A DNA stretch of 64,000 bases, taken from assembly GCF_002975405.1 (NCBI RefSeq), contig NZ_PCPS01000002.1, forward strand, positions 434,001 to 498,000. Reading direction: 5' to 3'. The DNA comes from Arthrobacter sp. MYb229 (lineage in GTDB: Bacteria > Actinomycetota > Actinomycetes > Actinomycetales > Micrococcaceae). The position numbers and the translations under genes were made by a program. This document shows positions 24,690 to 39,476 of this stretch, piece by piece; within the stretch, counting starts at the first letter, position 1, and each line of letters starts with the position of its first letter. The notes beneath the pieces were generated by a model. The model was not told the DNA's origin. It saw nothing but the letters and a program-made list of their open reading frames with translations, and did not search any database.

Positions 24690-24734
24690 AGAGCTCACTT
24701 ACTGAAAGGTCAGACCCAAGAATCTGAATAGCCG

Positions 24735-24775
24735 AAAGGGCCGGATCACGCGGCAATGCGTGAACCGGTCCTTTT
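24735..24775 (+). terminator. Rho-independent terminator of the dgo operon
   Basis: The stem pairs AAGG, CCGG and CACGC (24736-24751) with GCGTG, CCGG and CCTTTT (24758-24774) around GGCAAT. A T-run closes the right arm. It lies 46 bases after the transporter stop and ends the galactonate operon. Confidence 0.8.
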
Positions 24776-24810
24776 GCAGCTCAATAACTTGCTGTTGACA
24801 ATGGAATGAA

Positions 24811-25004
24811 CTAGACGCCTGCGATGCTGTTTTTCGCGAAAAACTGGTTGACGGTAGTAATGGATGAATTATCCGAGACGAGAAGGGCTGTCGCCCGGGC
24901 AAGAACGTCACGGTTCGGTGAAGCGTTCCAGGGGCACGTGTCCTAGACATCAGACGGCACGCTCTGGGTTCTCGGCCACGTGCCTCGAGAACAGGGGGTG
25001 CCCC
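24811..25004 (-). pseudogene. Fragment of an SDR gene paralogous to the one at 7.0 kb
   Basis: On the minus strand the pieces read PLFSRHVAENPERAV, then (after an in-frame stop/shift) VPLERFTEP and DNSSITTVNQFFAKNSIAGV before a stop. They line up with LLKELFAKDPERAARR, VPLGRFAEPDE and DDSSFITASQFLVDGGIAGA of the SDR at 7033-7833. Only the C-terminal quarter remains and it is frameshifted. It abuts an IS110-type fragment, which may mark the event that removed the rest. Confidence 0.65.
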
Positions 25005-25015
25005 TATGTAAAAAG

Positions 25016-25340
25016 TCAAGCAATTCTCAGCTCTGGAACGCCATAGAGTGACCCGTCCCGGAGCATGGCGAACAGGACTGTGAGGCGGCGGTGGGCTAGT
25101 GCGATGAGCGCTTGGTTGTGGCGCTTTCTCCGGGCTCGTGTCCGGTCGTAGTGGGATCGGCTGATCGGGCCGAAGCGGATGGATGCGAACGCTGAGAGGA
25201 ACAATGCTCATTTCAAGTCGTTTGCTGCCTGAATGGCTGACGCGTTCGGACTTGATCGAGGTGTCCGACTGGCGCGTTGTCGGCGCTAGCCCGCGGATTC
25301 CTGTGCTGGTCTGCGTGATTTGGCGAGACAGGTCCGGGTC
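25016..25340 (-). pseudogene. IS110-family transposase, C-terminal fragment with frameshift
   Basis: The first part (25016-25204) reads FLSAFASIRFGPISRSHYDR, TRARRKRHNQALIALAHRRL and TVLFAMLRDGSLYG. This is the conserved C-terminus of IS110/IS116/IS902 transposases. Upstream on the same strand but in another frame is GIRGLAPTTRQSDTS, matching the GLAPxxRQSG segment of the same family. The N-terminal DEDD domain is absent and no element ends were recognised. Confidence 0.75.
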
Positions 25341-25719
25341 GAAGCCGGTGAGTATCGCTCAGAGACCTCGATGATGCGCAGAAGGCCGATTTTCTCCAGC
25401 ACCGGAATCCATCAGGATGGCACGCTACAGGCAGGTGGGCATACTATCGTGGAAGGGGCGGCAGTAGACCTGGCCGTACCGGCCATCCTGCGATCACGCG
25501 CCAGCTGCCGATGGCACATTTCGCCGCTCTTCCGAATGACCTACGTGAAAGTACCTCAGATCTGGGCTTGCCAAAGGTGGTGCGTCCTGCCTCTGTAGCG
25601 GCTTCCGTACAGCCGCTGTACCTTGGAACAGATCTCTTTGCCTATACCTCTTTTTTATTTCTTTGTCTAACAACTCTCAACCCGTAGTATGGGATTATAG
25701 TTGTAACAGGTGGTGGGTT
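25341..25719. other. Unassigned interval before the toxin-antitoxin genes
   Basis: No gene is recognised in these 379 bases. The sequence from about 25630 is A/T-rich (a run of T at 25651-25657), and TATAGT at 25696-25701 is a plausible -10 element for the following pair, 18 bases before its start. Confidence 0.45.
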
Positions 25720-26709
25720 ATGAGTCTTGATGTAGTCTCCCTTCTTCGCGAATTGGATTTCCGTATCGATGGAGGAACTGAGGAGCGGTCGTGGTTGCTG
25801 CGCTCGCCGGAGAACGCAATCTTTTCAGTGGCGATGGTGCCTTCGGCGGAACGAGTCTCTGCGCGCACCATTCGTAACTTTATTGCTCATCAAGGTTCTC
25901 CGGTACGTCCCCTGTTTGCGGGCCGCACAGCCACCGATGGTGTTCTTGAACAAGCTCGGGCCGGGCAGGTTGATGTGCTCACGGAGCATCCGCTGCAGCT
26001 GATCCTCAAAGGCACAGTTTTCACTCCTGAGGCTTTCGAACAGGCCACTCCTGTTCAGCGGAAGAGCTCGCGCAGAATGGCGTGGGGGCGTTGGGCCATC
26101 GAACGGTGCCTTTTGTTGGCTGATACGCCAATGCATCAGTCGGAGATCGCAGGGTATGCGGGTGTGAGCCAGCAGATGGTATCGCGCGTTTGCAAGAATC
26201 TCGGCCCTCTGGTCACTAGCACCATTGACGGTGTGGAAGCTCAGAAGCCGGTAAAACTACTAGAACGGTGGGCGGCAGCTTACCCTGGGGCGGGTGGGCA
26301 GCAATTTGGCTGGTACAGCTTGGACCCCATTGTTAAGCAAACTCTGAACGCTGTTGAAGAAGCACGCTTGCTCGACGTGCATCCGTTGGTGAGTGGGGAC
26401 GTGGCAGCTGACCGGCTGATGCCGTGGAAACTCCCTACCCGCGGTCGGATCTACGTCGACAGCCCGATCGACTTATCAGGCCGTGGCTTTGTCGCTGCCC
26501 CGTTAGAAGAAGCCACACTCATCACCTGCATCCCCGATGATCCAACTACTTGGCGTCTGACCGAGATAGGAGCTTTTCCCATATATGAGGACCTGGATCT
26601 TGCCGATGCGGCTCTGGTCTACTGGGATGTCCTGAACAGCAACGACGTTGACAGCCGCGAGGCTGCGGAACAGCTCGCTGCTCTGATCACCACGGCTCTT
26701 TCGCTATGA
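25720..26709 (+). CDS. AbiEi/MenA-like antitoxin-regulator
   Basis: This 329-residue protein has a winged-helix-like region in the middle (MHQSEIAGYAGVSQQMVSRV, CKNLGPLVTSTIDG). It is directly followed, with a 4-base overlap, by an AbiEii/MenT-type nucleotidyltransferase. In such pairs the upstream gene encodes a DNA-binding antitoxin that represses the operon. I infer that role; the sequence itself has no strong match that I can recall. ATG 25720 is chosen because GGTGGTGGG lies just upstream. It is long for an AbiEi antitoxin (usually about 200-280 residues). Confidence 0.6.
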   Translation: MSLDVVSLLRELDFRIDGGTEERSWLLRSPENAIFSVAMVPSAERVSARTIRNFIAHQGSPVRPLFAGRTATDGVLEQARAGQVDVLTEHPLQLILKGTVFTPEAFEQATPVQRKSSRRMAWGRWAIERCLLLADTPMHQSEIAGYAGVSQQMVSRVCKNLGPLVTSTIDGVEAQKPVKLLERWAAAYPGAGGQQFGWYSLDPIVKQTLNAVEEARLLDVHPLVSGDVAADRLMPWKLPTRGRIYVDSPIDLSGRGFVAAPLEEATLITCIPDDPTTWRLTEIGAFPIYEDLDLADAALVYWDVLNSNDVDSREAAEQLAALITTALSL

Positions 26710-27485
26710 CCAAGCCGCACAAGATCTACGCCCTCGCTACGAGTGCCGCTGACGCCCTGGGGTACCGGGGGCAAAAGGCTGTTGCTGAGGCGGCCGAAGG
26801 CAACGACTACCGGATCGTGGGTGGGCACATGGTGCGTCTGCTGCTGCATGTTTATCCCGCCGCAAACGCGGTCCCTCGATCAACGACAGATGCCGATACT
26901 GCCATCGGCAGTCTGGAAATCGCAGCCCCTATGATCAGGAACTTCCTCGCCCAAAACTTCACTAAACAAGGAGGGAACCTGTTCTACCAGGAACTCGCTC
27001 CAGAACAACGAGTAGAGATCAACCTTCTCGCTCCACGCACCGGCAATGCGCCTGGTATTCGTCCACAAACCGTTCCAGGCGTTGGCCAAATTGATACCCT
27101 GATCGAACTGGCCTATGTCTTCAACCACCCACCGCTGATCATTGACGTCGAAGCCGACCTGGGCGACGGAGAAACCCTGAACTACCAGACCCGCATTCCC
27201 AACCTTGAAGAAGCTCTTGTCCTCAAAGCCTTTGCCTGGAGCGAACGCCGAAAAGACAAGGATCTTGCTGACTTGAACACGCTGCTTGAGATTCGTGAAG
27301 CCCACCCAGAAGTACCTTGGCGTCTCAACGAGTCGAACCTCATTGGATTCCGCAAAGACACCGTGCGGATTCTGCAACCGTTGACCGGTGCGCTCTCAAA
27401 AAAACGCACGCGCTTCCCGGTGCCCGAGGCTCTGGACAAGCTTCGCTTCGCTGCCCTGATAACCAAACATTGCACCCCTCGCTAA
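26706..27485 (+). CDS. AbiEii/MenT-family nucleotidyltransferase toxin
   Basis: This 259-residue protein has the GSxxxDxD-like signature of DUF1814 nucleotidyltransferases: IVGGHMVRLLLHVYP followed by RSTTDADTAI. VLKAFAWSERRKDKDLADLN is the conserved lysine-KDxxD segment. AbiEii and MenT toxins transfer nucleotides to tRNA acceptor ends or other targets and block growth, giving phage resistance by abortive infection. It overlaps the upstream regulator by 4 bases (ATGA). It lies in a region of broken genes and toxin-antitoxin remains. Confidence 0.78.
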   Translation: MTKPHKIYALATSAADALGYRGQKAVAEAAEGNDYRIVGGHMVRLLLHVYPAANAVPRSTTDADTAIGSLEIAAPMIRNFLAQNFTKQGGNLFYQELAPEQRVEINLLAPRTGNAPGIRPQTVPGVGQIDTLIELAYVFNHPPLIIDVEADLGDGETLNYQTRIPNLEEALVLKAFAWSERRKDKDLADLNTLLEIREAHPEVPWRLNESNLIGFRKDTVRILQPLTGALSKKRTRFPVPEALDKLRFAALITKHCTPR

Positions 27486-27561
27486 GAACCCACTATGACC
27501 AATCAATTTGTAGAGTTCGCTGGTTGTGCGGGAAAACTGAACAGAACCTCGAGTTTGAAGG

Positions 27562-27911
27562 TCAGAGCCCGTTGATTCTGCGTTGCCGTTTGGCCTCAGC
27601 AGAGTTGAAATAATCCTTGCTGTTGTAGCGGCGGTTGAAGTCTTTGAGATCAGGCATGCTAAAGAATCCTGGTGGAAGATTAGCCAAGGATCCCAAGCGC
27701 CGACAAATTTTCTCAACCAGTCTTCAACATCCTTCATCCGCTGTTTGAGCGGAACTCGCATCGCTATGTCCCCGCCTTTCGCTGAGAACGCGCTGGAAAT
27801 ATAGACCAGTGACTGCGCATTCATCCATCCTGCAATATCAGGTAGAAGTTCCACCTTCTGCCGAAATTTCAGTTTGCGATACTGGAGCGGAGAAGTCGTT
27901 TCACACTTCAT
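27562..27911 (-). pseudogene. Broken hypothetical gene
   Basis: From ATG 27911 the minus strand encodes PDIAGWMNAQSLVYISSAFS and MKDVEDWLRKFVGAWDPW. The coding signal then moves to another frame, ending MPDLKDFNRRYNSKDYFN and SAEAKRQRRINGL before TGA 27562-27564. One frameshift at about 27690 would join the two into a roughly 115-residue protein. I do not recognise the family. Confidence 0.45.
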
Positions 27912-28395
27912 CAGGCAAGCAGAACCGGCAAAGATCTCATCGTCTGGGTGCCTGCAACTGAGTTGCGAGCTGAAGCTACGAGGTCGCTGAGGACCAAGAC
28001 GGTGGCTTATGAGGCGCTAGGGCTGGTTGCTGGTTGCTGGTTCGAATTCGAGGGCTCCCATGGCTCGACTGCCAGTGTAGGCAAGACGCTCAAGAACGGA
28101 CACACTTTTTGGGTCGGCTCCTCGGCGTGCCATTTCAGCATTGATGATCGCATCGCTGAACCAACCAAGAATTACCTCAAAGTGCATCGGGAAGTGTAAA
28201 TCGTTTTGAGCTGACCAATCCAACTGTGAAGGGCTTGGTCATGAAGGGATCGACGGTGTTGAATGTGCGGAGTTCACGTCCGACGCTGCCTGCCAATGGT
28301 ATTCATGAAGTTGCTCATTCATGGGTGGGGGATTCGTTTGGCCTTTGATGAGAAGGAACCAGAAAGTAGCAACCACGCCACTCCGATCTGACTCT
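27912..28395. other. Interval with a HipA relic, otherwise unassigned
   Basis: Apart from the HipA-like fragment at 28017-28223, no gene is recognised. TTGCTGG is repeated in tandem at about 28024-28037. The sequence from 28224 to 28395 has only short open frames. Confidence 0.45.
28017..28223 (-). pseudogene. HipA-type toxin kinase, N-terminal fragment
   Basis: The frame reads FEVILGWFSDAIINAEMARR, GADPKSVSVLERLAYTGSRA and MGALEFEPATSNQ. In intact HipA-family proteins of the larger group the pattern WGxxxxxxxxARRGxDPxxVSxLDRLAYxGxRGMGALEYEP precedes the kinase domain. Here it stops directly after EFEPA, and neither the HipB partner nor the kinase core is present. The relic is non-functional. 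Confidence 0.6.
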
Positions 28396-30840
28396 TTACA
28401 GCGTATCTAGTGCGGGCTGCGAGCGATCACCGTCCCTGACGATGATCTTGAAACCCTTCTTGACGATGACCCTGTGCCTACGACGGGCCATATGCGCGAA
28501 GACGGGAACCTCCACATCAACGAAGTCGTGGATGCGGATCACTCGCTGCGCGTCATCGGTACGCTGAATGCGTCCAATCAGCTGCTCGATCTTGCCCTTA
28601 AAACTCGCCGGGGAGACCATGAACAAGGTGTCCAGGGTCGGCAAATTGAATCCTTCTCCAGCAATCTTGTCCGAAGCCACCACCACGTAGGAACCCCCTG
28701 CCTTCTCCACCTCTGCCAGTTGCGCGCTGATTGCTTGACGCTCCTTCTTGCTGAGTTTGCCGTGAAGTTCGATCACCGGGGTGGTGGTGCCCGAATTTTT
28801 GATGAGTTCAACAAGGTTGTGGATCTGTCCGGTTCGATTGGAAAGTACTAGGCAGTGTCGCTTCTCATTTAGCTCCGAGAGCACGAGATCAGCCACCTGT
28901 TGGTTGCGCCCCTGGTCGTGGGCGATCTCGTTATATAGCTCCTGCAATCCGGAGCCGTCGGTTTCCTGGGCTTCCGGCTCGAAGGGTGTTTCATGGACAT
29001 GCAGTTCACGCGTGGCAGCCAGTGGGGTCCCGGCGTCATGGCGGATGGGCCCGCATTGCATAGTGATTAGGCTATTGAGCTCGTCTGCCCGGTAGGGTGT
29101 TGCCGTGAGTCCAACCCAGAATCCTGCCTTGATCTTCTCGACGGCAGCCAGGGTAGAAGGTGCGGCGACCGAATGGCATTCGTCGATGATGATCTGGCCA
29201 TAGCCAGTGAGCGTTTGGGGATCGGCGTTGCGGCCTCGTAGCGACTGCATCATGACAAGGTCCACCTTCCCGCTAAGCTTTCGTTGGCCATCACCAAGCT
29301 GTCCGATCAATTGTGGATCCAGGCCCAGGAAATTCTGCAGGCTCTCGCGCCACTGGCCCAGCAACTGTGTGTTGTTTACCAAGATTGCGGTGGGTACTTG
29401 GCGCTGTGCAATCAATGCGCAGGCGATGACGGTCTTTCCGGACCCGGTGGGCGCGACGATAACTCCTTCGCGGTGAGGCAGGATGGAGTCGAGCATCTCT
29501 TGTTGTTCCGCGCGTAGCTCACCCTGGAATGGCTGCTCCAGCTTGGTTCGAGGCTTGCGCGGATAGTTGACCTTCACCGTGAAACCGGCGGTGCGCAAAA
29601 TCTTGATGGCTTCGTCGGTGACGCCTCGTGGCAAGAGCAATTCTTCCTCGGTGTGACTGAAACATTGGATCAGACGTGGAAACCCGTACGTGCTCATGCG
29701 TTGCGCTTGCCTACGGTAGAACTCGGGGTTAGCCTGACACGCCAGATGCTTGAGCTCGGTAATCACGGCGCTGGGCAACACCGGCAGCGGGATGTGCAGT
29801 TGGGCTTCGCGCAGCACTCGAATCGGCTGGTTTTTGACCAGACCTCGCAAACTAGCACGGGGACGACGCGGTGCTGGTTCGCTGGCCGAAAGCTTGGGAC
29901 CGACGCTCACGTTGCCCAATTCTTTTAAGTAATCCACCACCGCATTGGCGCTCGCCGGCACTACCTGATCCAACGCCGAGAAATAGTCTGGCAATGGTTC
30001 AAAGGTTTCCGGGTCAACAAACACCGTTCGCCCTTGTGCACGGGCTGTTCCTTCCAACGGCAACGCGATGAGGTTGCCCAGCCTGTTGGCGCCCGGAGAC
30101 TTGACCGGCAACGTGTCCTGCGAAGGGAAGAGACGGTCATAACTTTCCAAGGGCAGACCGGTACGGTATTCCATGGCGCTTCGAATAATTCCGGCGCCCA
30201 TGGCCCTGGCTTGAATTGCGGGGATGCGCTCGGTGAAGAAGATCCATATATGTGCCCCTTGACCCGATCGCGAAATCTCCACGAGGTTATCAAATCCAGC
30301 ACCACGTGCTGCCGCCGCATAGGCGGTGGCATCCGCCTTCCATTCACCCTTATCAAAGTCGCACACCAGTAGGTAACAATGGTCATCATCCATCAATGGA
30401 TACAGGCCAACGTGATAAGGATGAGTTCCTTCGGGAGTGGGCTTCAGATGCTGATAAATCACATCATCGCTCAGCGGCAACAAATCGGACTTGGCGACGT
30501 CCTTGGGGCTAACCCAGCTCTTTGTCTTCGGTCCCCAACCTTTCTTGCCAGTCTTGGCACTGAACCAGCTTGTCGCAAATGCATCGGTCCGACCGCGGAA
30601 CCGAGAACGGAAGAGTTGTAGTTTGTCCGCTGCTGATGACAAGTGAGTAATCGTAGAGGTGACTGTGGTAGCAGCTGGGATAGCTGGCAGCTGCATGGGT
30701 GCGGGCGCTGGTGCCGGCGCAACAATCGAGGATTCGAGTGCCGACAGGTCTGCACGCACCAGATGAAGCTGGTGCTCCAAGGCAGCGACGCGTTGTTTGA
30801 GCCGCGCGACCTGATTGCTAATGTCATCCTGAGCTGGCAC
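28396..30840 (-). CDS. TOTE-type primase-helicase (AEP domain fused to SF2 helicase)
   Basis: This 814-residue protein has four parts. Residues 5-45 form a coiled coil (VARLKQRVAALEHQLHLVRA). Residues about 70-320 are an archaeo-eukaryotic primase domain of the TOTE conflict-system type, with CDFDKGEW near 162 as the metal-binding DxD and SRSGQGAHIWIFF near 195 as the SxH motif. Residues about 440-800 are a superfamily 2 helicase: APTGSGKT near 463, DECHS near 553, LTATPYR, and QLIGRIQRT near 755. A linker of basic residues joins primase and helicase. GTG 30840 has AGGAGA upstream. Likely role is conflict/defence against foreign replicons. Confidence 0.82.
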   Translation of the reverse strand: MPAQDDISNQVARLKQRVAALEHQLHLVRADLSALESSIVAPAPAPAPMQLPAIPAATTVTSTITHLSSAADKLQLFRSRFRGRTDAFATSWFSAKTGKKGWGPKTKSWVSPKDVAKSDLLPLSDDVIYQHLKPTPEGTHPYHVGLYPLMDDDHCYLLVCDFDKGEWKADATAYAAAARGAGFDNLVEISRSGQGAHIWIFFTERIPAIQARAMGAGIIRSAMEYRTGLPLESYDRLFPSQDTLPVKSPGANRLGNLIALPLEGTARAQGRTVFVDPETFEPLPDYFSALDQVVPASANAVVDYLKELGNVSVGPKLSASEPAPRRPRASLRGLVKNQPIRVLREAQLHIPLPVLPSAVITELKHLACQANPEFYRRQAQRMSTYGFPRLIQCFSHTEEELLLPRGVTDEAIKILRTAGFTVKVNYPRKPRTKLEQPFQGELRAEQQEMLDSILPHREGVIVAPTGSGKTVIACALIAQRQVPTAILVNNTQLLGQWRESLQNFLGLDPQLIGQLGDGQRKLSGKVDLVMMQSLRGRNADPQTLTGYGQIIIDECHSVAAPSTLAAVEKIKAGFWVGLTATPYRADELNSLITMQCGPIRHDAGTPLAATRELHVHETPFEPEAQETDGSGLQELYNEIAHDQGRNQQVADLVLSELNEKRHCLVLSNRTGQIHNLVELIKNSGTTTPVIELHGKLSKKERQAISAQLAEVEKAGGSYVVVASDKIAGEGFNLPTLDTLFMVSPASFKGKIEQLIGRIQRTDDAQRVIRIHDFVDVEVPVFAHMARRRHRVIVKKGFKIIVRDGDRSQPALDTL

Positions 30841-30910
30841 AGACGATCTCCTGGTGGAACGAACCTTTCTACATGAGCATAACCAGTGTCGTACCTACTA
30901 ATCGGCAAGA

Positions 30911-30928
30911 AGTACACTGCGCTGTACT
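30911..30928. promoter_or_regulatory. Palindrome upstream of the primase-helicase gene
   Basis: AGTACA and TGTACT are perfect 6-base arms around CTGCGC, 71-88 bases upstream of the GTG start on the minus strand. Position fits an operator or promoter element for the primase-helicase; no regulator gene is adjacent. Confidence 0.4.
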
Positions 30929-31062
30929 GTATTGGTTGCGCGGTTGTCGCTGAGGGGAAGAATTTTGGCCGTACTTGATAGCACGCGGTCAACGTGAACT
31001 TCCCTGTTTCTTGAGGTCTAAAGGCGATGAAATACCCCCGTTAGCTGACGGCCGGTTCTGCC

Positions 31063-32724
31063 CTAGCGAGGCTCGATCACGGCCGTTTCGACGGTGTCCA
31101 ACCTCGGGTGCAGATGGTCTTCGTGTTCAACCACTCCCGTGACCCAGCTGATCACCAGCCCGTCCTCGGTGTCCTCGAGGATGGCCAGATTGTTATCGAA
31201 CCACGGCCCCTTGATGCCGTCCCAGCGAAAGGGCGGGTCCGGCACGTGAGCCCTGCGCGCCATCCAAGCCCCGAACGGGACGGCAGGCCCCAAGGCCAAG
31301 GCTGCGGCAAAGTAGCGTATAAACCGGGGCAGTGGGTTGCGGATGGGCGAACACACAGCTTGCAGGATCCTGCTCCCGTTCTCGCGTTCGACCTCGGAGA
31401 CGTAGGAGAAGTGCACGTCTCCGGAGAGGAACGTGACGGACGCCGGGGCGGGGCCGCGCTGCCCATCGGCGACCTCGGTGGCCCACCGTGCCACGTCCTG
31501 GAAGCTTTTTTGGAACGCCGCCCAATGCTCAAGGTCCACGGCCCGGCGCAGTCGTTCGCCGAGCCACGCCCGGGCCGGGCCGCGTTCCCCGGAGGAGTAG
31601 ACCTCGTTCCACGCTTCCACGTGATGCAGGCCCATGGGCAGCAGGAAGGGCAGTGAGGTAGCGATCAGCAGGTGGCGGAATCCGCCTTGCATGTGCTCAT
31701 CGAGCCACGCATTTTCCGGTGGATCGAGCAGGGCACGCGCTTCGGGGTCGAGGCTGCGGGCGGCACGGGAGTCCACCACGATCAGCCGCACCGTATCCCA
31801 GTCGCGGCAGTAGCTGAAGCTGTATTCTTCCGGTGCGGCATCGACGCGCTCGGCGAACCGGTCCAAGTCGGCAGTGATATCCAATTCTTCGGGACCGGTG
31901 TGGGAAGCGATGAGTTGCCACAGTGGATCTGCAGCCCGTTTCTCGGGGGAGAGATTGCCGAGGTGCTGGTAGATCCAATACGAGCCGAGGCCCGCAACAA
32001 TGCGTTCGTGCCACCAGCTGGTCTGCTCCATGTCCTGCTTCCAACTGCGCGAGGAGTTCCAATCGTCGCGGATGTCGTGGTCGTCGAAAATCATGGCGCT
32101 GGGCAGGGTGGAAAGAAGCCAGCGGTTGGCCGGGTCCGACCAGGCCAACCGGTACAGATGGGCGTATTCCTCAAAGTCCTTCAGCTCCGCCCCGGGTTCC
32201 TCGCTGATATCGCGCCGGCTGGCGATGAACTCGCGCATCTGCTCACTGGTGGAGTCCGCATACACCTGGTCCCCGAGGAAGAGCATCAGATCCGGCCACG
32301 GTCCGTGCTCCGGGCCCGCCATGGACAGGGCATAGGCGCGCATCGCGTCCACCCCGTGCTTGCGGTTGCCCGGCGCGTCGTGCGGAACGCTGGTGCGGCA
32401 GGACCCGAAGGCCAGCCGGGGATTCTTGGCGGGGTCGATGGTGGCGATCATCGATTCGGGGAAGCCATCCTCGCGCGGCCAGACCGGTTTCCCATCCAGA
32501 TGCACACTGTAGGGATTGACGCTTCCAATCTCCAGCCCGCTCACCTGAACCAACGCATAGTGGTGGCCGTGGGCAGCAAAAGTCGGCGCACTCCAGCTGG
32601 ATCCACCGCAACGGACCTCGACGGTGCCAGGCCGCGCGGTTTCCACCCAGATGCTGGCGCAGCTGGCATCCACGTAGCGCAGCATCGGGCCAAGCACTAG
32701 GTCCTGATCGCTTTGCTGGCTCAT
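31063..32724 (-). CDS. PhoD-like metallophosphatase
   Basis: This 553-residue protein belongs to the PhoD/alkaline phosphatase D metallophosphatase family. LAFGSCRTSV, MLFLGDQVYAD, SAMIFDDHDIRDDW and FLSGDVHFSYVSEV hold the metal-binding aspartates, asparagine-equivalent and histidines. Secreted PhoD has a Tat signal; none is present here, so this is a cytoplasmic phosphodiesterase/phosphatase-like member. An N-terminal fibronectin-like region (residues 1-95) precedes the catalytic domain, as in relatives. ATG 32724 has AGGAAGGG upstream and is preferred over a longer frame. It is divergent from the SRPBCC gene. Confidence 0.82.
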   Translation of the reverse strand: MSQQSDQDLVLGPMLRYVDASCASIWVETARPGTVEVRCGGSSWSAPTFAAHGHHYALVQVSGLEIGSVNPYSVHLDGKPVWPREDGFPESMIATIDPAKNPRLAFGSCRTSVPHDAPGNRKHGVDAMRAYALSMAGPEHGPWPDLMLFLGDQVYADSTSEQMREFIASRRDISEEPGAELKDFEEYAHLYRLAWSDPANRWLLSTLPSAMIFDDHDIRDDWNSSRSWKQDMEQTSWWHERIVAGLGSYWIYQHLGNLSPEKRAADPLWQLIASHTGPEELDITADLDRFAERVDAAPEEYSFSYCRDWDTVRLIVVDSRAARSLDPEARALLDPPENAWLDEHMQGGFRHLLIATSLPFLLPMGLHHVEAWNEVYSSGERGPARAWLGERLRRAVDLEHWAAFQKSFQDVARWATEVADGQRGPAPASVTFLSGDVHFSYVSEVERENGSRILQAVCSPIRNPLPRFIRYFAAALALGPAVPFGAWMARRAHVPDPPFRWDGIKGPWFDNNLAILEDTEDGLVISWVTGVVEHEDHLHPRLDTVETAVIEPR

Positions 32725-32831
32725 CGGTTTCCCTTCCTGGAGGTGCAGGTCAACCAAGAATGGCACAACAACATCGTGGGGGATAGGCCCGGCTGCCGGG
32801 CAGAGGATCAGTTCCTGCATAGGATGGGCAG

Positions 32832-33278
32832 ATGAGCCCATCCCCGTATCTGCAAACCCGCCGCCGCCTCGTGGCCGCTTCGCCTTCAGAGATCTTCGAA
32901 CTGCTCACCGATCCGGCCATGCACCCGGTCATCGACGGCTCCGGAACGGTGCGGGCCTCGACCGCGAAGGAAGGCAAGCTCAGCCTAGGCAGTGAGTTCG
33001 GCATGCAGATGCGCCTGGGTGTCCCATACCGGATCAGCAATACCGTGGTGGAATTCGAGCATGACCGGCAGATCGCCTGGCGGCACTTCAGTGGGCATCG
33101 GTGGCGCTACCAGCTGGAAGCTGCAGGGTCAGGAACCATGGTCAGCGAAACCTGGGACGCGAGCCGGGTGCGGCACCAATGGCTGCTGCGCCTGATGGGC
33201 TTCACCCGGAGCACCGGTCCCAATATGGAACGCACCCTGGAACGGCTGGCAGCGCAGTTCCCCGAGACCGCCGAGTAA
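32832..33278 (+). CDS. SRPBCC-family protein
   Basis: This 148-residue START/Bet v1-like protein begins with the typical strand and loop (YLQTRRRLVAASPSEIFELL, then TDPAMHPVIDGSG). It ends with a long helix (STGPNMERTLERLAAQF) that closes the ligand cavity. Ligand is unknown; members bind lipids or act as toxin-like polyketide cyclases. TAGGAT at 32820-32825 ends 6 bases before the ATG, suggesting a leaderless transcript; no ribosome site is seen. It is divergent from the PhoD-like gene by 107 bases. Confidence 0.78.
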   Translation: MSPSPYLQTRRRLVAASPSEIFELLTDPAMHPVIDGSGTVRASTAKEGKLSLGSEFGMQMRLGVPYRISNTVVEFEHDRQIAWRHFSGHRWRYQLEAAGSGTMVSETWDASRVRHQWLLRLMGFTRSTGPNMERTLERLAAQFPETAE

Positions 33279-33470
33279 GGGCGCTTTGCGCTGAGCAGCT
33301 CGTCGATGACGAGGCAAAACACCGTGCAGCGCCACGCCTCACCGTGCTCATCGGCGGTCCGCTGGGAAACGCTGGCATCCGTAGCGGATCAACCCGTGAT
33401 TCTCCACGGTCGTGGCTGCACTGCTGGCCGTCGACTCCAAGAAACGTCTGCCGGCTCCACAGCTGGGGGC

Positions 33471-33758
33471 GGCACAAACACCTACGCCTGGGCCTGCTAT
33501 TCGGACTCGACCGCGCTCCTCAGCGCCCGCGGATTCGCCGAGAACGCATTCGCACCCTTCGCCATGGACGCCGAATTCGACCGGGCTCTGGCATTATTCG
33601 ACCTGAACTTCTTGTTGTTGGTGGGCCTGTGGATCATGGTGGTCGTGGTGACGGCCCGGACCGCCGGGCGCCAGCCTGGGATGCGGCGATAGTGGCCCTA
33701 GCCCCCGGGGATCATCCTGGCGGCGACGATCAACATGGGAATGATGAAGAGCAACTAG
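33471..33758 (+). pseudogene. Fragment of a GT87/DUF2029-type membrane protein
   Basis: The translation reads TNTYAWACYSDSTALLSARG, FAENAFAPFAMDAEF, then FDLNFLLLVGLWIMVVVVTA RTAGRQPGMRR. After a frameshift it gives ALAPGIILAATINMGMM. The CYSDxxxLxxxRGF segment, the helix before RTAGRxP, and ALAPGxxLAATINWDxL are all typical of the actinobacterial GT87 mannosyltransferase-like family. Here the pieces are compressed and out of frame, and the rest is missing. Confidence 0.5.
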
Positions 33759-34726
33759 CCGTCTTCTTCCGAGACAAGAGACTTTTGTCGTTTTCAGAAG
33801 GCAACAGCACTGCGATGCGTCGTCCTTTTGGCGGAAGGAGCATTTGGATAGCCGCGTGGCGCACAAGTGCAATTTCAAGAATTTGCGTCCTCAGTGACCC
33901 GGCATAGAAGGAAACATATAGTCTTTTGGAGCGAGCGAATTGTCGCTGCTAAGGCGAATTCACATTAGCAGCGATAATTTCAAAGCGTTCAATCAGCTAC
34001 GCAGCAGAACCATTGGTCCGTTGAAATCTACGTGGCTCCGCAATGGAGCATGCCAATGGCCGGTCTCCCTGGCCGACCGATGACGCAAAGATAGAACGAA
34101 CGCTCTTATCAGGCGTTGCAGCGTTTTCTGAAATCAAACAAGCCGCGAGATCTTGCTGGGGTACAGAAACTCCTGCGTCGTTACCGCGAACATTACAATC
34201 AGCGTCGTCCTCATCAATCCTCGAACCAGGCCACACCGCAAACTGCAGGTAGCTTCTGGAGCATACGCCGGCTACTGAGCCGATACCGTTAGTAGCGTTG
34301 GCGGCCAAAGCTGTCGAATACCTCATGGAACGCAGGCTGGGACGTATTGGGGTGAATCGGGCCGACATTGTTGTTTCGGAGACAGGAAACATCCTGGGAG
34401 ACTTGAGCTTCATGAAGAGTACGGCGCTGTAATTGAAAGTAATCATTTGTTGATGGAAGTCACCACCAGCAACTGTTAGACCTACTACAAAGGGAGACAG
34501 TTTTTTACCGTCAACTTTTGCATAGTTTCGATTCGTACGGACGATCACCGAATAAGAATTAATATTGTCTGACCCCGACACCGCTGAAATCGTCCTACGG
34601 TTCCCGCTTCCATGAATCGATAATCCATGGATCTGGTGGAGCGGAATGTGTTTCCGTCTGGACAGACCGATAGGATCACAACTATCGGAAGTCGCGATTT
34701 GAGATCTACGTCAGAGGAGAATTAGC
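33759..34726. other. Unassigned interval upstream of the NUDIX-helicase genes
   Basis: No intact gene is recognised in these 968 bases. A plus-strand frame ending at TAA 34430-34432 reads VALAAKAVEYLMERRLGRIG, then VNRADIVVSETGNILGDL. It looks like the C-terminus of a real protein, but it is closed upstream by a stop near 34250 and I do not know the family. Base composition becomes visibly more A/T-rich from here to about 39.5 kb. Confidence 0.45.
34667..34688. promoter_or_regulatory. Palindrome overlapping the probable promoter of the NUDIX-helicase operon
   Basis: CCGATAG (34667-34673) and CTATCGG (34682-34688) are perfect 7-base arms around GATCACAA. TAGGAT (34671-34676), a plausible -10 hexamer, lies inside the left arm, 50 bases before the TTG start. 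The arrangement fits a repressor site blocking the promoter. Confidence 0.5.
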
Positions 34727-35116
34727 TTGAAGAAGCAAATCAATGTTGTTGGTGCCGTTATCATCAGGAACGATGAAATCCTCTGCGCTCAAAGAGGCCT
34801 AAATGGAAGTCTCGGCGGCATGTGGGAATTTCCTGGTGGCAAAATTGAGCCAGAAGAAACTCCTCGCGAAGCACTCGAACGTGAGATTCGAGAGGAACTC
34901 CTCTGCACGGTCAAAGTAGACGATGAAGTCACGAGTACCACCTATGAATATGACTTCGGAATTGTTACTCTGACAACCTTCTATTGCGAGTTAGTCGAAG
35001 GAGAACCGCAGCTAACGGAGCATGAAGATGCAAAGTGGCTCAAACGCGATGAACTCATGTCTCTGGAGTGGGCGCCAGCGGACATTCCCGCGGTGGAAAT
35101 CATCCAGGCGGCGTAG
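34727..35116 (+). CDS. NUDIX hydrolase, MutT-type (d)NTP pyrophosphohydrolase
   Basis: This 129-residue enzyme has a complete NUDIX box: GGKIEPEETPREALEREIRE followed by EL. VVGAVIIRNDEILCAQRGL and MWEFPGG are typical of MutT/CTP-pyrophosphohydrolase members that hydrolyse (deoxy)nucleoside triphosphates to monophosphates. The start is TTG 34727 with GAGGAG 7 bases upstream; an ATG is not available. The stop TAG overlaps the GTG start of the helicase gene by one base, so the two are translationally coupled. This points to a joint function in nucleic acid or nucleotide processing. Confidence 0.85.
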   Translation: MKKQINVVGAVIIRNDEILCAQRGLNGSLGGMWEFPGGKIEPEETPREALEREIREELLCTVKVDDEVTSTTYEYDFGIVTLTTFYCELVEGEPQLTEHEDAKWLKRDELMSLEWAPADIPAVEIIQAA

Positions 35117-38100
35117 TGAAGACAAACGCTGATCTCGTTCTTGGTAGTGCTCTCTCTAGAGACGTCACTTTTGGATTCTTAGACGGGAAACAGCAATCTC
35201 GCCGCCATCACCACCCTCGTGTCGTATTGAACGCTGACGGAAATACGGTTCTGCGCATCCTTCGCGAAGAGCTTGCCCGGTGTGATGAATTCATTTTCTC
35301 CGTCGCTTTTGTAACCCCGAATGCGATTGCTTTACTTAAACAGGAGCTCGTGGAATTTTCGGGTCGAGGAACGATTGTCACCTCCGACTATTTGGGCTTT
35401 AACTCGCCATCGGCTTTTAACGAGTTACTTAACCTTGAAACTCTAGGGATCAACGTTCGAATTCACAACGCGGGAGCCTTTCACCCGAAGGGTTATATTT
35501 TCATAACCGAGAATATGGTTACGGCCATGATCGGCAGTTCAAATTTGACCGGTAACGCGATCGTCAAAAATCACGAATGGAACCTGAAAGTTTCAGCATC
35601 CGAGGGCAGCGATCTAGCTGACCAGCTATCGTTGTTGACCCAGAACCAGATCGAAGAATCCATGGTGCTGAGCCAACGGTGGATAGATGCGTATGCGGAA
35701 CAGTACACGCCTCCTCCGATACGTCGGAAAGTAGTAGTTACCCCTCAACCTGACGTTGATGAGCAGCTTCTGCCGATAGCGACTGAACAAGATCTTGATG
35801 TGACCGGCCAATCGCCGGATGGCGCTGTGTCGACCGAGTTGTTCCTGCCGATCCTCCCGAACCAGATGCAAACGGAGGCGCTCAAGGCGCTGGAACAGGT
35901 TCGGTCGAGCGGCGAGTCGAAGGCCATAGTCATTTCGGCTACCGGTACGGGAAAGACGATCCTCTCGGCATTGGAAGTACGGGCAGCTCATCCTGGCCGG
36001 TTCTTATTTGTCGTTCACCGCGAGCAGATTCTCGATAAAACCATCCAAGAGTACCGCCGCGTCATCGGCGGCCACTACAACGATTTTGGCAAACTTGCCG
36101 GTGCCTCCAAACAAAGCGACCGCAAGTTTGTTTTCGCAATGGTGCAGACATTGTCCCAAGATAGTGTGCTGCACGAGATTCAGCCAGACGCTTTTGACTA
36201 CATCATCGTTGACGAGGCACATCGCGTTGGCTCTCCAACATACAAGAAGGTACTTGGATACCTCGAACCTACTTTCCTGCTTGGCCTGACAGCCACACCA
36301 GAACGTAGCGATGGATTCAATGTTTTTGAGTTTTTCGACTACAACGTGCCTTATGAGATTCGCTTGAATCACGCGTTGGAAGAGAACATGCTGAGCCCAT
36401 TTCATTACTACGGGATAGCCGACGTAACGCTTGATGACCAGACGACCCTAGACAGCACAGATGATCTGGGACATCTTGTGACGGCGGACCGTGTTCACCA
36501 TATTATTGACGCGCTGGCTAAATATGGGCAGGCGGGTGTTGCCCCAAAGGGGCTTATTTTCTGTTCTCGTAAAGTTGAAGCTGCTGCCCTATCTGCAGCG
36601 CTGAATCAGCAGCAACTGCGTGGGAAAACTTTGCGGACGGTTAGTCTCAGCGGTGACGATTCGGTGGATCAGCGAGAACGAGTAGTTGGGCAACTGGAAC
36701 GCGGAGAACTCGACTACATCCTCACCGTCGACATCTTCAATGAGGGGGTGGATATCCCCACAGTGAATCAGGTCGTCATGCTTCGCCAAACGCAATCGGC
36801 CATAGTGTTCGTGCAGCAGCTTGGACGCGGTTTGCGTAAAGCACCGATGAAGGACTACTTGGTGGTGATCGACTTCATTGGCAACTACGCGAACAACTAC
36901 ATGATCCCGATAGCGCTGTTCGGCGATGAATCGCTGAACAAAGAGTCGCTGAAAGAGAAGCTTATTTCCACCGAACAGGCTGGCGTACTTGCCGGTTTAT
37001 CAAGTGTTCGATTCGATAAGGTCTCGCAGCAGCGTGTGCTTGATTCCATCCGTACAACTGCTCTGGACAGCATTCAAAAGCTCCGCGGTGCGATGCAGTC
37101 GATGCAGAACCGAGTTGGACGCGCACCGAAGCTCTTTGATTTCTATCGATTTGAATCGGTCGATCCGGTATTACTGGCAACGAAGAAGGAAAACTATCCA
37201 GCGTTGGTTAAGAGCCTTTTGCGGATTGATCATGAGCTTAGCCATGATGAGCTCAAGGCGTTGTCACTACTATCGCATGAAGTCCTGACGTCGAAGAGAA
37301 TTCATGAGTTCGTGCTTGTCCGTGAGTTGCTTTCACACGGTTCGGTAACCTTGCCCCAATTCCAAGCAGCGCTCCTCAACGAAGGAATCGACGCGACCCA
37401 TCGCGAATTGATGAGCACCGTAGAAACTCTGAATCTTGCTAATCACGGACAAGTTGATCAAAGTCGATATGGAATTCGTTTGGCACACATCGATGGAGAA
37501 TCTATATCGGCTGATTCTGGTTTTCTCAGTTCATATCGTTCACACAGTGCATTCACCAACGAAGTGGACGACATCATGCAAACGGGCATGGCCTTAGTGC
37601 GAGACCGGTATGTTGCTGGAGATCCGTTTATCGTTGGAGGACAGTATTCCCGAAAGGAAGTGACACGTCTTCTGGGACTGCCACGAAAATGGACGTCAAC
37701 GCTTTACGGGTACAAAGTCGATCCAGAATCGAAGACCTGCCCGATTTTTGTGACGCTGCACAAATCGGACGATATCTCGGCTAGCACCGCGTACCAGGAT
37801 GAACTGGTTGATCCTTCCCATCTGCGATGGTTCACGCGATCAAGGCGAACGCTACAGAGCGATGAAGTCCGGCGAATAGTGAATAACGAGGTTGATCTGT
37901 ACGTCTTCGTTAAGAAAGACGATGCGGAAGGCACCGAATTCTTTTACTTAGGCCAGGCCGATTCGCGCAATGCCGAACAGACTCACATGTCTGGAAAGAA
38001 CCAAGAGCAGCTTGACGTCGTCACGATGAACCTGCATTTCGAGAAAGCGATCGACAACGCTTTGTACGACTATTTGAGCCCGAATCAGAACCTGACTTAA
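35116..38100 (+). CDS. PLD-like nuclease / SF2 helicase / DUF3427 fusion
   Basis: This 994-residue protein has a PLD-like domain at about residues 40-190: FHPKGYIFIT near 122 and MIGSSNLTGNA, with HxK present but the usual following aspartate not clear. A superfamily 2 helicase core follows at about 250-600: SATGTGKT near 275, IIVDEAHRVG near 365, LLGLTATPERSDG, and QQLGRGLRKAP near 569. The C-terminal 300 residues match the DUF3427 region (FIVGGQYSRKEVTRLLGLPR, FVKKDDAEGTEFFYLG). Such proteins occur in defence islands. GTG 35116 overlaps the NUDIX stop. Confidence 0.85.
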   Translation: MKTNADLVLGSALSRDVTFGFLDGKQQSRRHHHPRVVLNADGNTVLRILREELARCDEFIFSVAFVTPNAIALLKQELVEFSGRGTIVTSDYLGFNSPSAFNELLNLETLGINVRIHNAGAFHPKGYIFITENMVTAMIGSSNLTGNAIVKNHEWNLKVSASEGSDLADQLSLLTQNQIEESMVLSQRWIDAYAEQYTPPPIRRKVVVTPQPDVDEQLLPIATEQDLDVTGQSPDGAVSTELFLPILPNQMQTEALKALEQVRSSGESKAIVISATGTGKTILSALEVRAAHPGRFLFVVHREQILDKTIQEYRRVIGGHYNDFGKLAGASKQSDRKFVFAMVQTLSQDSVLHEIQPDAFDYIIVDEAHRVGSPTYKKVLGYLEPTFLLGLTATPERSDGFNVFEFFDYNVPYEIRLNHALEENMLSPFHYYGIADVTLDDQTTLDSTDDLGHLVTADRVHHIIDALAKYGQAGVAPKGLIFCSRKVEAAALSAALNQQQLRGKTLRTVSLSGDDSVDQRERVVGQLERGELDYILTVDIFNEGVDIPTVNQVVMLRQTQSAIVFVQQLGRGLRKAPMKDYLVVIDFIGNYANNYMIPIALFGDESLNKESLKEKLISTEQAGVLAGLSSVRFDKVSQQRVLDSIRTTALDSIQKLRGAMQSMQNRVGRAPKLFDFYRFESVDPVLLATKKENYPALVKSLLRIDHELSHDELKALSLLSHEVLTSKRIHEFVLVRELLSHGSVTLPQFQAALLNEGIDATHRELMSTVETLNLANHGQVDQSRYGIRLAHIDGESISADSGFLSSYRSHSAFTNEVDDIMQTGMALVRDRYVAGDPFIVGGQYSRKEVTRLLGLPRKWTSTLYGYKVDPESKTCPIFVTLHKSDDISASTAYQDELVDPSHLRWFTRSRRTLQSDEVRRIVNNEVDLYVFVKKDDAEGTEFFYLGQADSRNAEQTHMSGKNQEQLDVVTMNLHFEKAIDNALYDYLSPNQNLT

Positions 38101-38350
38101 CTTCGCTGACACCAAATGGGCGTAAAGAATCAGCGGCGATTTCGGGCCGGATAGTCGCAACGAACTGTTACCGACGATCTTTGCCATCAATACGAACCGT
38201 CGAATGTATTCTTCCACTAGCTTTCTATCGGCCAATTTTTTGAGACCGTCCTAATCAAACTTCGACATACAGATACATGAAAAATACATCGTCCGGTCAG
38301 GAGTAAGGTATTCATCTAGCTTGGTTTGTAGAACGGATAGGCGCAGAAAT

Positions 38351-39343
38351 TTAGGATCCAGAATTTAGCATAAATTCTGGATACCAGATTTTTATTAGCC
38401 CTTCGCAGTCATCCGCGGAGAGCTCTAAAAATTCGTCAGGGGTCTTATCAATTTTTTGCAACAGAGTATCGAAAGCTTCCGGGCCGTGTTCATATCTTCT
38501 ACCCACTGTTTCGAGGCGGAGTTCTTTTTTAGTATCGACTTTGTGCAGGATAACTTGTCCCATACGTGATTCGTTTGCGTCGTGATGGATGAGATCACTA
38601 TCTATCCGAACCGGAGGAAACACGTGGGTATCATTGATGAAGAAAATGATGTCTCCTCGAGAGAAGGCGCCTTCCTTTTCCACTATCTGCAATAAATCGA
38701 ATCGAAAACCAGTCTTGCGTTGACGCAACGAACCTTCCTTCTCTTGTTGCAAAAGTTCTACGACCTCGTCAGGGGTTAGATCAGCATCAATCCACCGAAC
38801 TATGTATATTTTGTTAAGTTCCCACGGGAATCCGAAAGCTTGTGGTTCGGGGGTATTTATGCCCGTAATGCGATGCGAAGGGTCACCAGCATCAAATAGT
38901 TTTTTGAGGTCAGATAACTTCGAGCTGGTGATTTTTCCTCCCGAAGCTTCAATCTCGTGCTCGACGAATTCTCTGACTTCTTTTCTAGTTTCACGATCAG
39001 TGGTGATTAGAACAGCTTCGGATGCTCGCGCAGAACTCGCGGACGCATTCGCAGATCCCACGACTGCGTGTCGGTCAGTAGAAATGACTTTGGCATGCAA
39101 TATCGAAGACGTATGCACTTCGACGCCTGAATTAATAAATCGTTCAAGGGCGTAAGGATTTGTTGCCCCTGAGGCTACATTTTGGTCGCTAGCATTTACA
39201 AGGAGGACGTCGCCTAAACCAAGAGGAAGTCGTTCCGGAGCATCTTTACCGATAAATGCGATTGCGGCATATGTTCTTCCTGCGCCCTCAACTACGTTGG
39301 TGATATGCGGCCAAACGGCCTGAGAATGAAATCGAGTTACCAT
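38351..39343 (-). CDS. PLD-family (HKD) protein, probable nuclease
   Basis: This 330-residue protein has one HKD motif: HAKVISTDRHAVVGSANASA at about residues 92-111 (H, K, then D at the expected spacing, followed by GSxN). Single-HKD proteins of this kind act as dimers and are often nucleases (as in NucC/BfiI-type and defence proteins). The remaining 200 residues (FPWELNKIYIVRWIDADLTP, RGDIIFFINDTHVFPP) are not assigned. It is convergent with the helicase gene across 250 bases and shares its A/T-rich composition. The ATG has no strong ribosome site. Confidence 0.72.
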   Translation of the reverse strand: MVTRFHSQAVWPHITNVVEGAGRTYAAIAFIGKDAPERLPLGLGDVLLVNASDQNVASGATNPYALERFINSGVEVHTSSILHAKVISTDRHAVVGSANASASSARASEAVLITTDRETRKEVREFVEHEIEASGGKITSSKLSDLKKLFDAGDPSHRITGINTPEPQAFGFPWELNKIYIVRWIDADLTPDEVVELLQQEKEGSLRQRKTGFRFDLLQIVEKEGAFSRGDIIFFINDTHVFPPVRIDSDLIHHDANESRMGQVILHKVDTKKELRLETVGRRYEHGPEAFDTLLQKIDKTPDEFLELSADDCEGLIKIWYPEFMLNSGS

Positions 39344-39476
39344 GATTGAAGTCTAATCGGATGGTCATGAGCAACAAGACATTTGATTCACTGACGAGCG
39401 GGGGACACCGACGTGCTCTGACTGCTGCTTTTGGATATATTTTGAAGAAGTAAACAATGTCGAGACCCAAACTGAT

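Follow-up and report, generated by a model that had tools for sequence, protein, structure and literature searches.

The structure of SauUSI, a Type IV restriction enzyme of Staphylococcus aureus that depends on modified cytosine, is described in the available part of PMC7913695. It comprises a dimeric phospholipase D-like (PLD) nuclease (H119, K121), a superfamily 2 (SF2) ATPase and a coupler, followed at the C-terminus by an SRA-fold domain in which a 5-methylcytosine (5mC) pocket has been modelled. DUF3427 is predicted to bind modified DNA in the accessible text of PMC7159879. Small proteins labelled 'DNA repair' next to SauUSI homologues of Streptococcus are identified as MutT homologues in a figure legend of PMC7641849, and in Streptococcus suis the PADLOC family PDC-S07 co-localised with Type IV restriction-modification in 23 of 23 occurrences (PMC12813430, in the portion available). 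That PDC-S07 and Type IV restriction co-localise has already been published (PMC12813430, PMC7641849). PDC-S07 has also been recorded in Streptococcus thermophilus, the accessible portion of PMC11514479 giving no functional result for it. Here, we describe a two-gene locus from Arthrobacter sp. MYb229, encoding a NUDIX hydrolase and a large PLD-helicase-DUF3427 protein, which lies in a stretch of 64,000 nucleotides (contig NZ_PCPS01000002.1, positions 434,001 to 498,000), from now on referred to as the window.

The large protein very probably belongs to the SauUSI family over its full length and is thus a Type IV restriction enzyme dependent on modified cytosine, as judged by sequence comparison. 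Its Pfam domains are PLDc_2, ResIII, Helicase_C and DUF3427, and they follow the collinear order of PLD, SF2 ATPase, coupler and DUF3427 by which the SauUSI type is recognised. The PADLOC profile mREase_IV matches residues 18-989 (E = 7.4e-210), and residues 11-952 of the SauUSI structure (7clg) align with residues 17-989 of the window protein (E = 6.7e-203); the residue numbers of the window protein were counted from position 35113, one codon before the GTG start, and are hence one too high. Where an earlier note on this DNA could assign the locus to no named system, SauUSI-type Type IV restriction now supplies one. The same note had called the HKD character of the nuclease domain weak. Both nuclease motifs are in fact intact (HPK for HxK and GSSN for GSxN), and HxK/GSxN is retained in all 37 full-length members that were aligned. 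What does vary is the acidic position after HxK (E126 in SauUSI, Ile in the window enzyme), which is K in 13 of the 37, E in 9, R in 7, Q in 3, H in 2 and I in 1, with two members outside these counts; as the position is variable across the family, the domain has no defect and is in the normal state of its family.

Most residues of the DUF3427/SRA pocket are also kept. Four of the six SauUSI residues have identical equivalents (Y831, F841, D858 and W868), whereas M829 is replaced by Tyr and I842 by Val; of the full-length members, 22 of 37 keep Tyr at Y831 and 20 keep Trp at W868. Overall, the window enzyme is approximately 37% identical to the S. aureus copy and is an additional member of an already known family. 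PADLOC holds a second DUF3427 Type IV family, PDLC03659, which likewise combines PLD, helicase and DUF3427 but is distinct, with 32-36% identity over the core; one copy of it, in sister genome G800, sits at the same chromosomal slot as the window pair.

The NUDIX protein matches the PDC-S07 profile over residues 1-128 (profile positions 3-130 of 135, E = 3.2e-56, 186.7 bits) and contains a Nudix box, GKIEPEETPREALEREIREELL. The S of PDC-S07 presumably means solitary candidate, and the profile carries no function, whereas the window NUDIX very likely belongs with a restriction gene. When ranked against the Protein Data Bank, its closest relatives were 5x1x, Escherichia coli NudG (2rrk, E = 2.8e-22), 3gwy and mycobacterial MutT2 (5zrc), with MutT (1mut) lower (E = 7e-14). 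Towards its end, the domain of the window NUDIX carries the motif APADIP, as do NudG and 5x1x. At the corresponding PAD/PAN motif, NudG has Asp and MutT has Asn; a loose pattern finds Asp in 56 of 62 NUDIX sequences linked to SauUSI and in 50 of 59 without such a link. NudG and MutT2 are the best matches with known or stated activity on 5-methyl-deoxycytidine triphosphate (5-methyl-dCTP). NudG (Orf135) is listed as a 5-methyl-dCTP pyrophosphatase in tables of PMC5389931 and PMC5158307, and its rate on this substrate is cited as approximately 100-fold above that of MutT in PMC3744803, each in the part of the source that was available.

In a NUDIX tree, the window protein groups with 5x1x and other SauUSI-linked copies, apart from NudG and MutT2; the alignment has few columns and the forks are weak, and use of the tree was confined to near sisters and the clade of the window protein. 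The sole unlinked member of this clade (L038) lies beside a gene for an apparent membrane protein, which matched nothing in the libraries tried. Separately, four Actinomycetota genomes (G207, G319, G310 and G328; L144 to L147) encode a second NUDIX of 130-149 bits away from SauUSI, lying inside a longer open frame of 223-700 amino acids.

Base 35116 is shared between the NUDIX stop codon (TAG, 35114-35116) and the helicase start codon (GTG, 35116-35118), as the earlier note had stated. Its description of the block as A/T-rich also holds: the G+C content is 0.500 for the NUDIX gene, 0.507 for the helicase gene and 0.461 for a separate convergent PLD gene downstream, compared with 0.585 for the whole window. 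In six sister genomes, NUDIX and enzyme genes together have values of 0.495-0.522, so the low G+C content is a property of the pair and not of the window copy alone. Promoter and terminator scans gave results no better than chance.

We consider it highly likely that the NUDIX hydrolase is a real partner of the SauUSI-type enzyme. For counting, enzymes were classed as full-length at a DUF3427 score above 200 bits in Actinomycetota or at E < 1e-120 in Bacillota. Among 396 Actinomycetota genomes, 40 contained DUF3427 and seven the full-length type; these 40 genomes held seven PDC-S07 matches above 150 bits, all directly beside a full-length enzyme, and the 33 with weaker DUF3427 matches had no PDC-S07 match above 115 bits. 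Among 398 Bacillota genomes, 90 had an enzyme match, 15 of them full-length (those of G661 and G794 with in-frame stops). NUDIX adjoins the enzyme in 13 of these 15, is 14 kb away in one and has no match in one; the NUDIX search covered 79 of the 90 genomes, the 11 left out having weak enzyme matches (E = 1e-30 to 1e-37). Two genomes served as search centres: that of the window and G396, which is counted among the 15 from Bacillota and was reached via a locus found through its NUDIX. The pair is therefore adjacent in 20 of 22 sampled full-length genomes, or 18 of 20 when these two are set aside. By their coordinates, eight weaker-scoring Bacillota copies also have NUDIX close by (G708, G713, G581, G532, G634, G468, G654 and G471).

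The linkage was also viewed from the NUDIX side; this view covers the best 80 among 573 matches that were confirmed and is no census. A SauUSI homologue lay in the fetched flank of 39 of these 80 relatives, within 400 bp in 37. The 57 distinct close pairs comprise 13 in which the NUDIX precedes the enzyme on the same strand (L035 counted among them), 33 in which it follows the enzyme on that strand and 11 convergent ones, with no divergent pair; two repeat genomes (L116 and L079) were left out of both the tree and these pairs. Distances between NUDIX proteins and between their enzymes are correlated (r = 0.77 over 34 pairs, with the species tree uncontrolled), and none of 2000 permutations gave a value as high. 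NUDIX genes beside SauUSI homologues were found in Actinomycetota, Bacillota, Bacteroidota, Fibrobacter and Spirochaetaceae. Enzyme loci without a NUDIX match numbered 37 and mostly represent weaker families with short flanks; they include the loci of G573 and G647 (L125 and L126) and also L009, which on a longer stretch (L148) proved to be linked upstream.

A partner of the same clade is also present in S. aureus itself. In record L198, the NUDIX is identical to 5x1x at 122 of 126 positions and the gene right after it shares 97.4% identity with SauUSI across 192 residues, so the classic SauUSI has a NUDIX partner too; the window locus differs in the one-base overlap of the two genes. L198 (OR845003.1) was deposited as a Staphylococcus phage and carries these host genes, probably as host DNA in the assembly.

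Our best-supported hypothesis, with a chance of being right that we put at or just under even, is that the NUDIX hydrolase guards its host against self-restriction by destroying 5-modified dCTP. The two genes would form a two-gene Type IV restriction unit, with both proteins probably made from one message. In incoming DNA, the SRA-like DUF3427 domain would recognise 5mC and probably 5-hydroxymethylcytosine, upon which the ATPase would translocate and the dimeric PLD nuclease would cut, as the full-length homology to SauUSI suggests. Breakdown of methylated foreign or phage DNA, followed by salvage, can give rise to 5-methyl-dCTP and its 5-modified relatives. Polymerases accept 5-modified dCTPs like dCTP, so that 5-methyl-dCTP left in the pool would lead to 5mC in the host chromosome and the restriction enzyme would attack its owner. 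The NUDIX would cleave 5-methyl-dCTP, hydroxymethyl-dCTP and similar dCTPs modified at position 5, leaving monophosphates, and would thereby serve as a self-protection partner, standing in for the missing modification enzyme. This proposal rests on homology and context: homology, catalytic and pocket residues, linkage and the lack of a C5 methyltransferase match in the window's genome were computed, and the NUDIX substrate and the self-protection role are what we infer.

Several observations weigh against such a guard. According to the accessible text of PMC3874153, SauUSI restricts as a single polypeptide in Escherichia coli; E. coli, however, supplies a NudG of its own. We saw no biochemistry for any SauUSI-linked NUDIX. 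About half of the enzyme family varies at two pocket residues, so the 5mC pocket is not universal. The window NUDIX scores 102.8 bits against the nearest NCBIfam equivalog, PRK10546, which we take to be NudG and whose cut-off is 156 bits; the protein is therefore named NudG-like rather than NudG. The window's genome also encodes another NUDIX (G000:C19, 90 bits) that joins MutT2 on a long branch. No NUDIX lies beside the enzyme in two of the 22 full-length genomes (G573 and G647) and in one Fusobacterium record; a MazG-like protein as its replacement there was considered and rejected, none being present at these three loci. A match to PDC-S07 (E up to 1e-12) lay beside Vsr in none of 35 Vsr genomes. 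In the genus sample of 18 genomes, C5 methyltransferases occur in one of seven with the full-length enzyme versus seven of 11 without it; this leans towards a guard, but the contrast is weak (one-sided Fisher p = 0.057) and drawn among genomes that are kin, and two of the 11 (G800 and G799) hold the other DUF3427 family.

Further points against the guard come from NUDIX genes that stand without the enzyme, and they also favour an alternative in which the NUDIX is an ordinary house-cleaning enzyme, acting on 8-oxo-dGTP, 5-hydroxy-dCTP or 2-hydroxy-dATP, that rides on defence cassettes with no functional link. Among the best 80 of 573 NUDIX relatives, 41 that match with similar strength have no SauUSI beside them, 17 of these 41 having one flank shorter than 3.2 kb beyond which SauUSI may lie. 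Similarly, five of 19 Bacillota genomes without an enzyme match contain a PDC-S07 match above 145 bits. The neighbours of unlinked NUDIX genes are mixed, with no Pfam family in more than three of 132 neighbours (counted within two genes; five of the 41 loci were dropped as their NUDIX frame was not recovered), and ten upstream neighbours from eight unlinked loci, viewed singly, were mostly metabolic or unknown. NudG itself acts on more than one substrate, as stated in the available part of PMC5158307. We nonetheless regard house-cleaning as unlikely: hitch-hiking would hardly account for 20 of 22 full-length genomes having the two genes adjacent, nor for three gene arrangements across phyla, and the slot of five sister genomes contains the pair and nothing else. 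A reading in which the NUDIX attacks phages, draining the 5-methyl- or 5-hydroxymethyl-dCTP of phages with modified DNA as a second line beside restriction, draws on the same predicted substrate class, and such phages do exist (the accessible text of PMC10742078 cites a 5-methyl-dCMP kinase induced by a phage). Loss of modified dCTP, however, would strip phage DNA of the very mark the restriction enzyme needs, and we judge this role to be rather improbable. Of what the earlier note proposed, a role in defence is supported; depletion of phage nucleotides is, in our view, the less likely NUDIX role.

The overlapping start and stop codons suggest matched production, and the available part of PMC7159879 describes NUDIX domains in nucleotide-dependent conflict systems; both would suit a NUDIX that regulates the enzyme or a nucleotide signal, through local nucleotide levels or messenger degradation. 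We give this reading little weight, as the closest solved NUDIX relatives are deoxynucleoside triphosphate pyrophosphatases and no synthase or sensor lies beside the pair in the five pair-only sister slots (linked loci were not searched for signal synthases). By far the least probable is the module put forward in the earlier note, in which the NUDIX, the helicase-nuclease and the separate PLD protein form a single three-part defence system. The three genes are neighbours in the window, and the convergent PLD frame exists as described, with the motif LHAK...GSAN. This protein found no match in the 80 NUDIX loci, in 117 other genomes or in the stretches around the six sister copies of the pair, and five of these six pairs have nothing at its position. 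The three-gene module was accordingly rejected, and the co-occurrence which the note had proposed as a check divides: NUDIX and enzyme are widely found together, and the separate PLD protein was found with them nowhere else in the genomes sampled. The latter is a passenger and no part of the NUDIX-enzyme pair; its AlphaFold model has a pLDDT (predicted local distance difference test) of 35, too low for use.

Some NUDIX genes lie close to other DNA modification or nucleotide-related genes, a 5mC theme that speaks for the proposed guard. C5-methyltransferase or Vsr restriction genes occur within four genes in five of the 41 unlinked loci. Vsr, a C5 methyltransferase, EcoRII and NUDIX stand in a row in L082 (4782-8400), while L086 contains a C5 methyltransferase, HNH, Vsr, NUDIX and a GmrSD-like gene; L101, at a contig start, has an LlaJI-type endonuclease, Vsr and NUDIX, L064 a MutH-domain protein and a C5 methyltransferase on the opposite strand, and L041 a C5 methyltransferase approximately 4 kb off. 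In the tree, the L082 NUDIX is sister to that of SauUSI-linked L083 (support 100), L086 to L049 (95), and L101 is near linked L065 and L105 (89). Judged from tree and gene order, the placement of L082, L086 and L101 resembles an exchange between enzymes that cut at 5mC and enzymes that make it, one that is not general. Given the count among Vsr genomes above, Vsr was rejected as a general NUDIX neighbour and the C5-type loci remain single cases.

On a Lactiplantibacillus plantarum plasmid (L200:2062-7457), NUDIX, SauUSI, a MazG-like pyrophosphohydrolase and a GIY-YIG/Schlafen-type helicase are encoded one after the other. The final two genes have relatives that again occur together in L062, L077, L097 and L104. 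A MazG-like gene is present in five of the 80 NUDIX loci, four with SauUSI and one (L070) without; L063, also without SauUSI, has a weak MazG match (E = 1.5e-6). The human 5-methyl-dCTP hydrolase DCTPP1 belongs to the same superfamily as the MazG-like pyrophosphohydrolase, according to the available text of PMC4491611.

The pair lies in a variable defence hotspot, bounded by the galactonate operon on one side and a nucleoside hydrolase gene on the other (Table 1). In the genus sample, NUDIX is immediately upstream of the enzyme in all seven genomes with the full-length type, and the same nucleoside hydrolase gene follows the pair in all seven; in five of them, the pair is all that lies between the galactonate transporter gene and the nucleoside hydrolase gene. 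The same slot holds DndH-like genes, C5 methyltransferases and other Type IV enzymes in sister genomes, and the presence of other restriction genes there in several sisters supports the earlier suggestion of defence and horizontal transfer. C5 methyltransferases sit at the slot in four enzyme-less genomes (G805, G808, G798 and G811) and outside the compared slot in G807, G803 and G802; G813 and G804 had no slot in the comparison. The window's genome has no match to PF00145 (C5 methyltransferase), an absence to be expected, though not strictly required, in the host of a SauUSI-type enzyme. One of the six sister genomes with the enzyme, G809, has a C5 methyltransferase, which by its look we take to be of phage type. 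In sister genome G797, a second Type IV family protein (PDLC03657) and an HNH protein flank the pair (L165:6964-7896 and L165:11882-12829).

In the window, the slot spans 14.8 kb and contains, among others, an AbiEi/AbiEii-like pair and an AEP-TOTE primase-helicase. The former (25663-27485, plus strand) consists of two overlapping genes with weak matches to AbiEi (PF09952) and AbiEii (PF08843), a possible type IV toxin-antitoxin pair with no match in PADLOC. The latter (28396-30840, minus strand) is an 814-amino-acid protein of the TOTE conflict-system type, with an AEP-TOTE primase domain (PF22548, E = 3.4e-66) and an SF2 helicase.

Table 1. Features of the NUDIX-SauUSI locus in window coordinates
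Feature	Position	Strand	Remarks
NUDIX hydrolase, PADLOC PDC-S07 family, NudG-like	34727..35116	+	129 amino acids; TTG start behind an AGGAG-type ribosome site
SauUSI-type Type IV restriction enzyme (very probable): PLD nuclease, SF2 ATPase, coupler, DUF3427 (SRA-fold) target recognition domain	35116..38100	+	GTG start
Separate single-PLD protein	38351..39343	-	330 amino acids; convergent; passenger, placed after the restriction gene and before the nucleoside hydrolase gene
Variable slot (defence hotspot)	24690..39476	.	From the end of the galactonate major facilitator superfamily (MFS) gene (24689) to the start of the nucleoside hydrolase gene (39477)

The main significance of the locus lies in the NUDIX partner rather than in the enzyme. 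In the published accounts, so far as their text was available, a NUDIX beside SauUSI carries only a 'DNA repair' label or stands as an unexplained candidate, and we found no paper that proposes or tests a pool-guard role, within a literature that was covered in part and with subscription papers mostly outside. The idea can be tested by known assays. More tentatively still, and with a probability somewhat short of even, SauUSI-type restriction in nature may consist of the enzyme together with a dedicated guard of the 5-modified dCTP pool. Some C5-methyltransferase/Vsr systems would employ the same kind of guard, and now and then a MazG-like pyrophosphatase would act as a second one. If true, the pool guard would explain how a cell can digest methylated DNA and yet survive its own modification-dependent nuclease.

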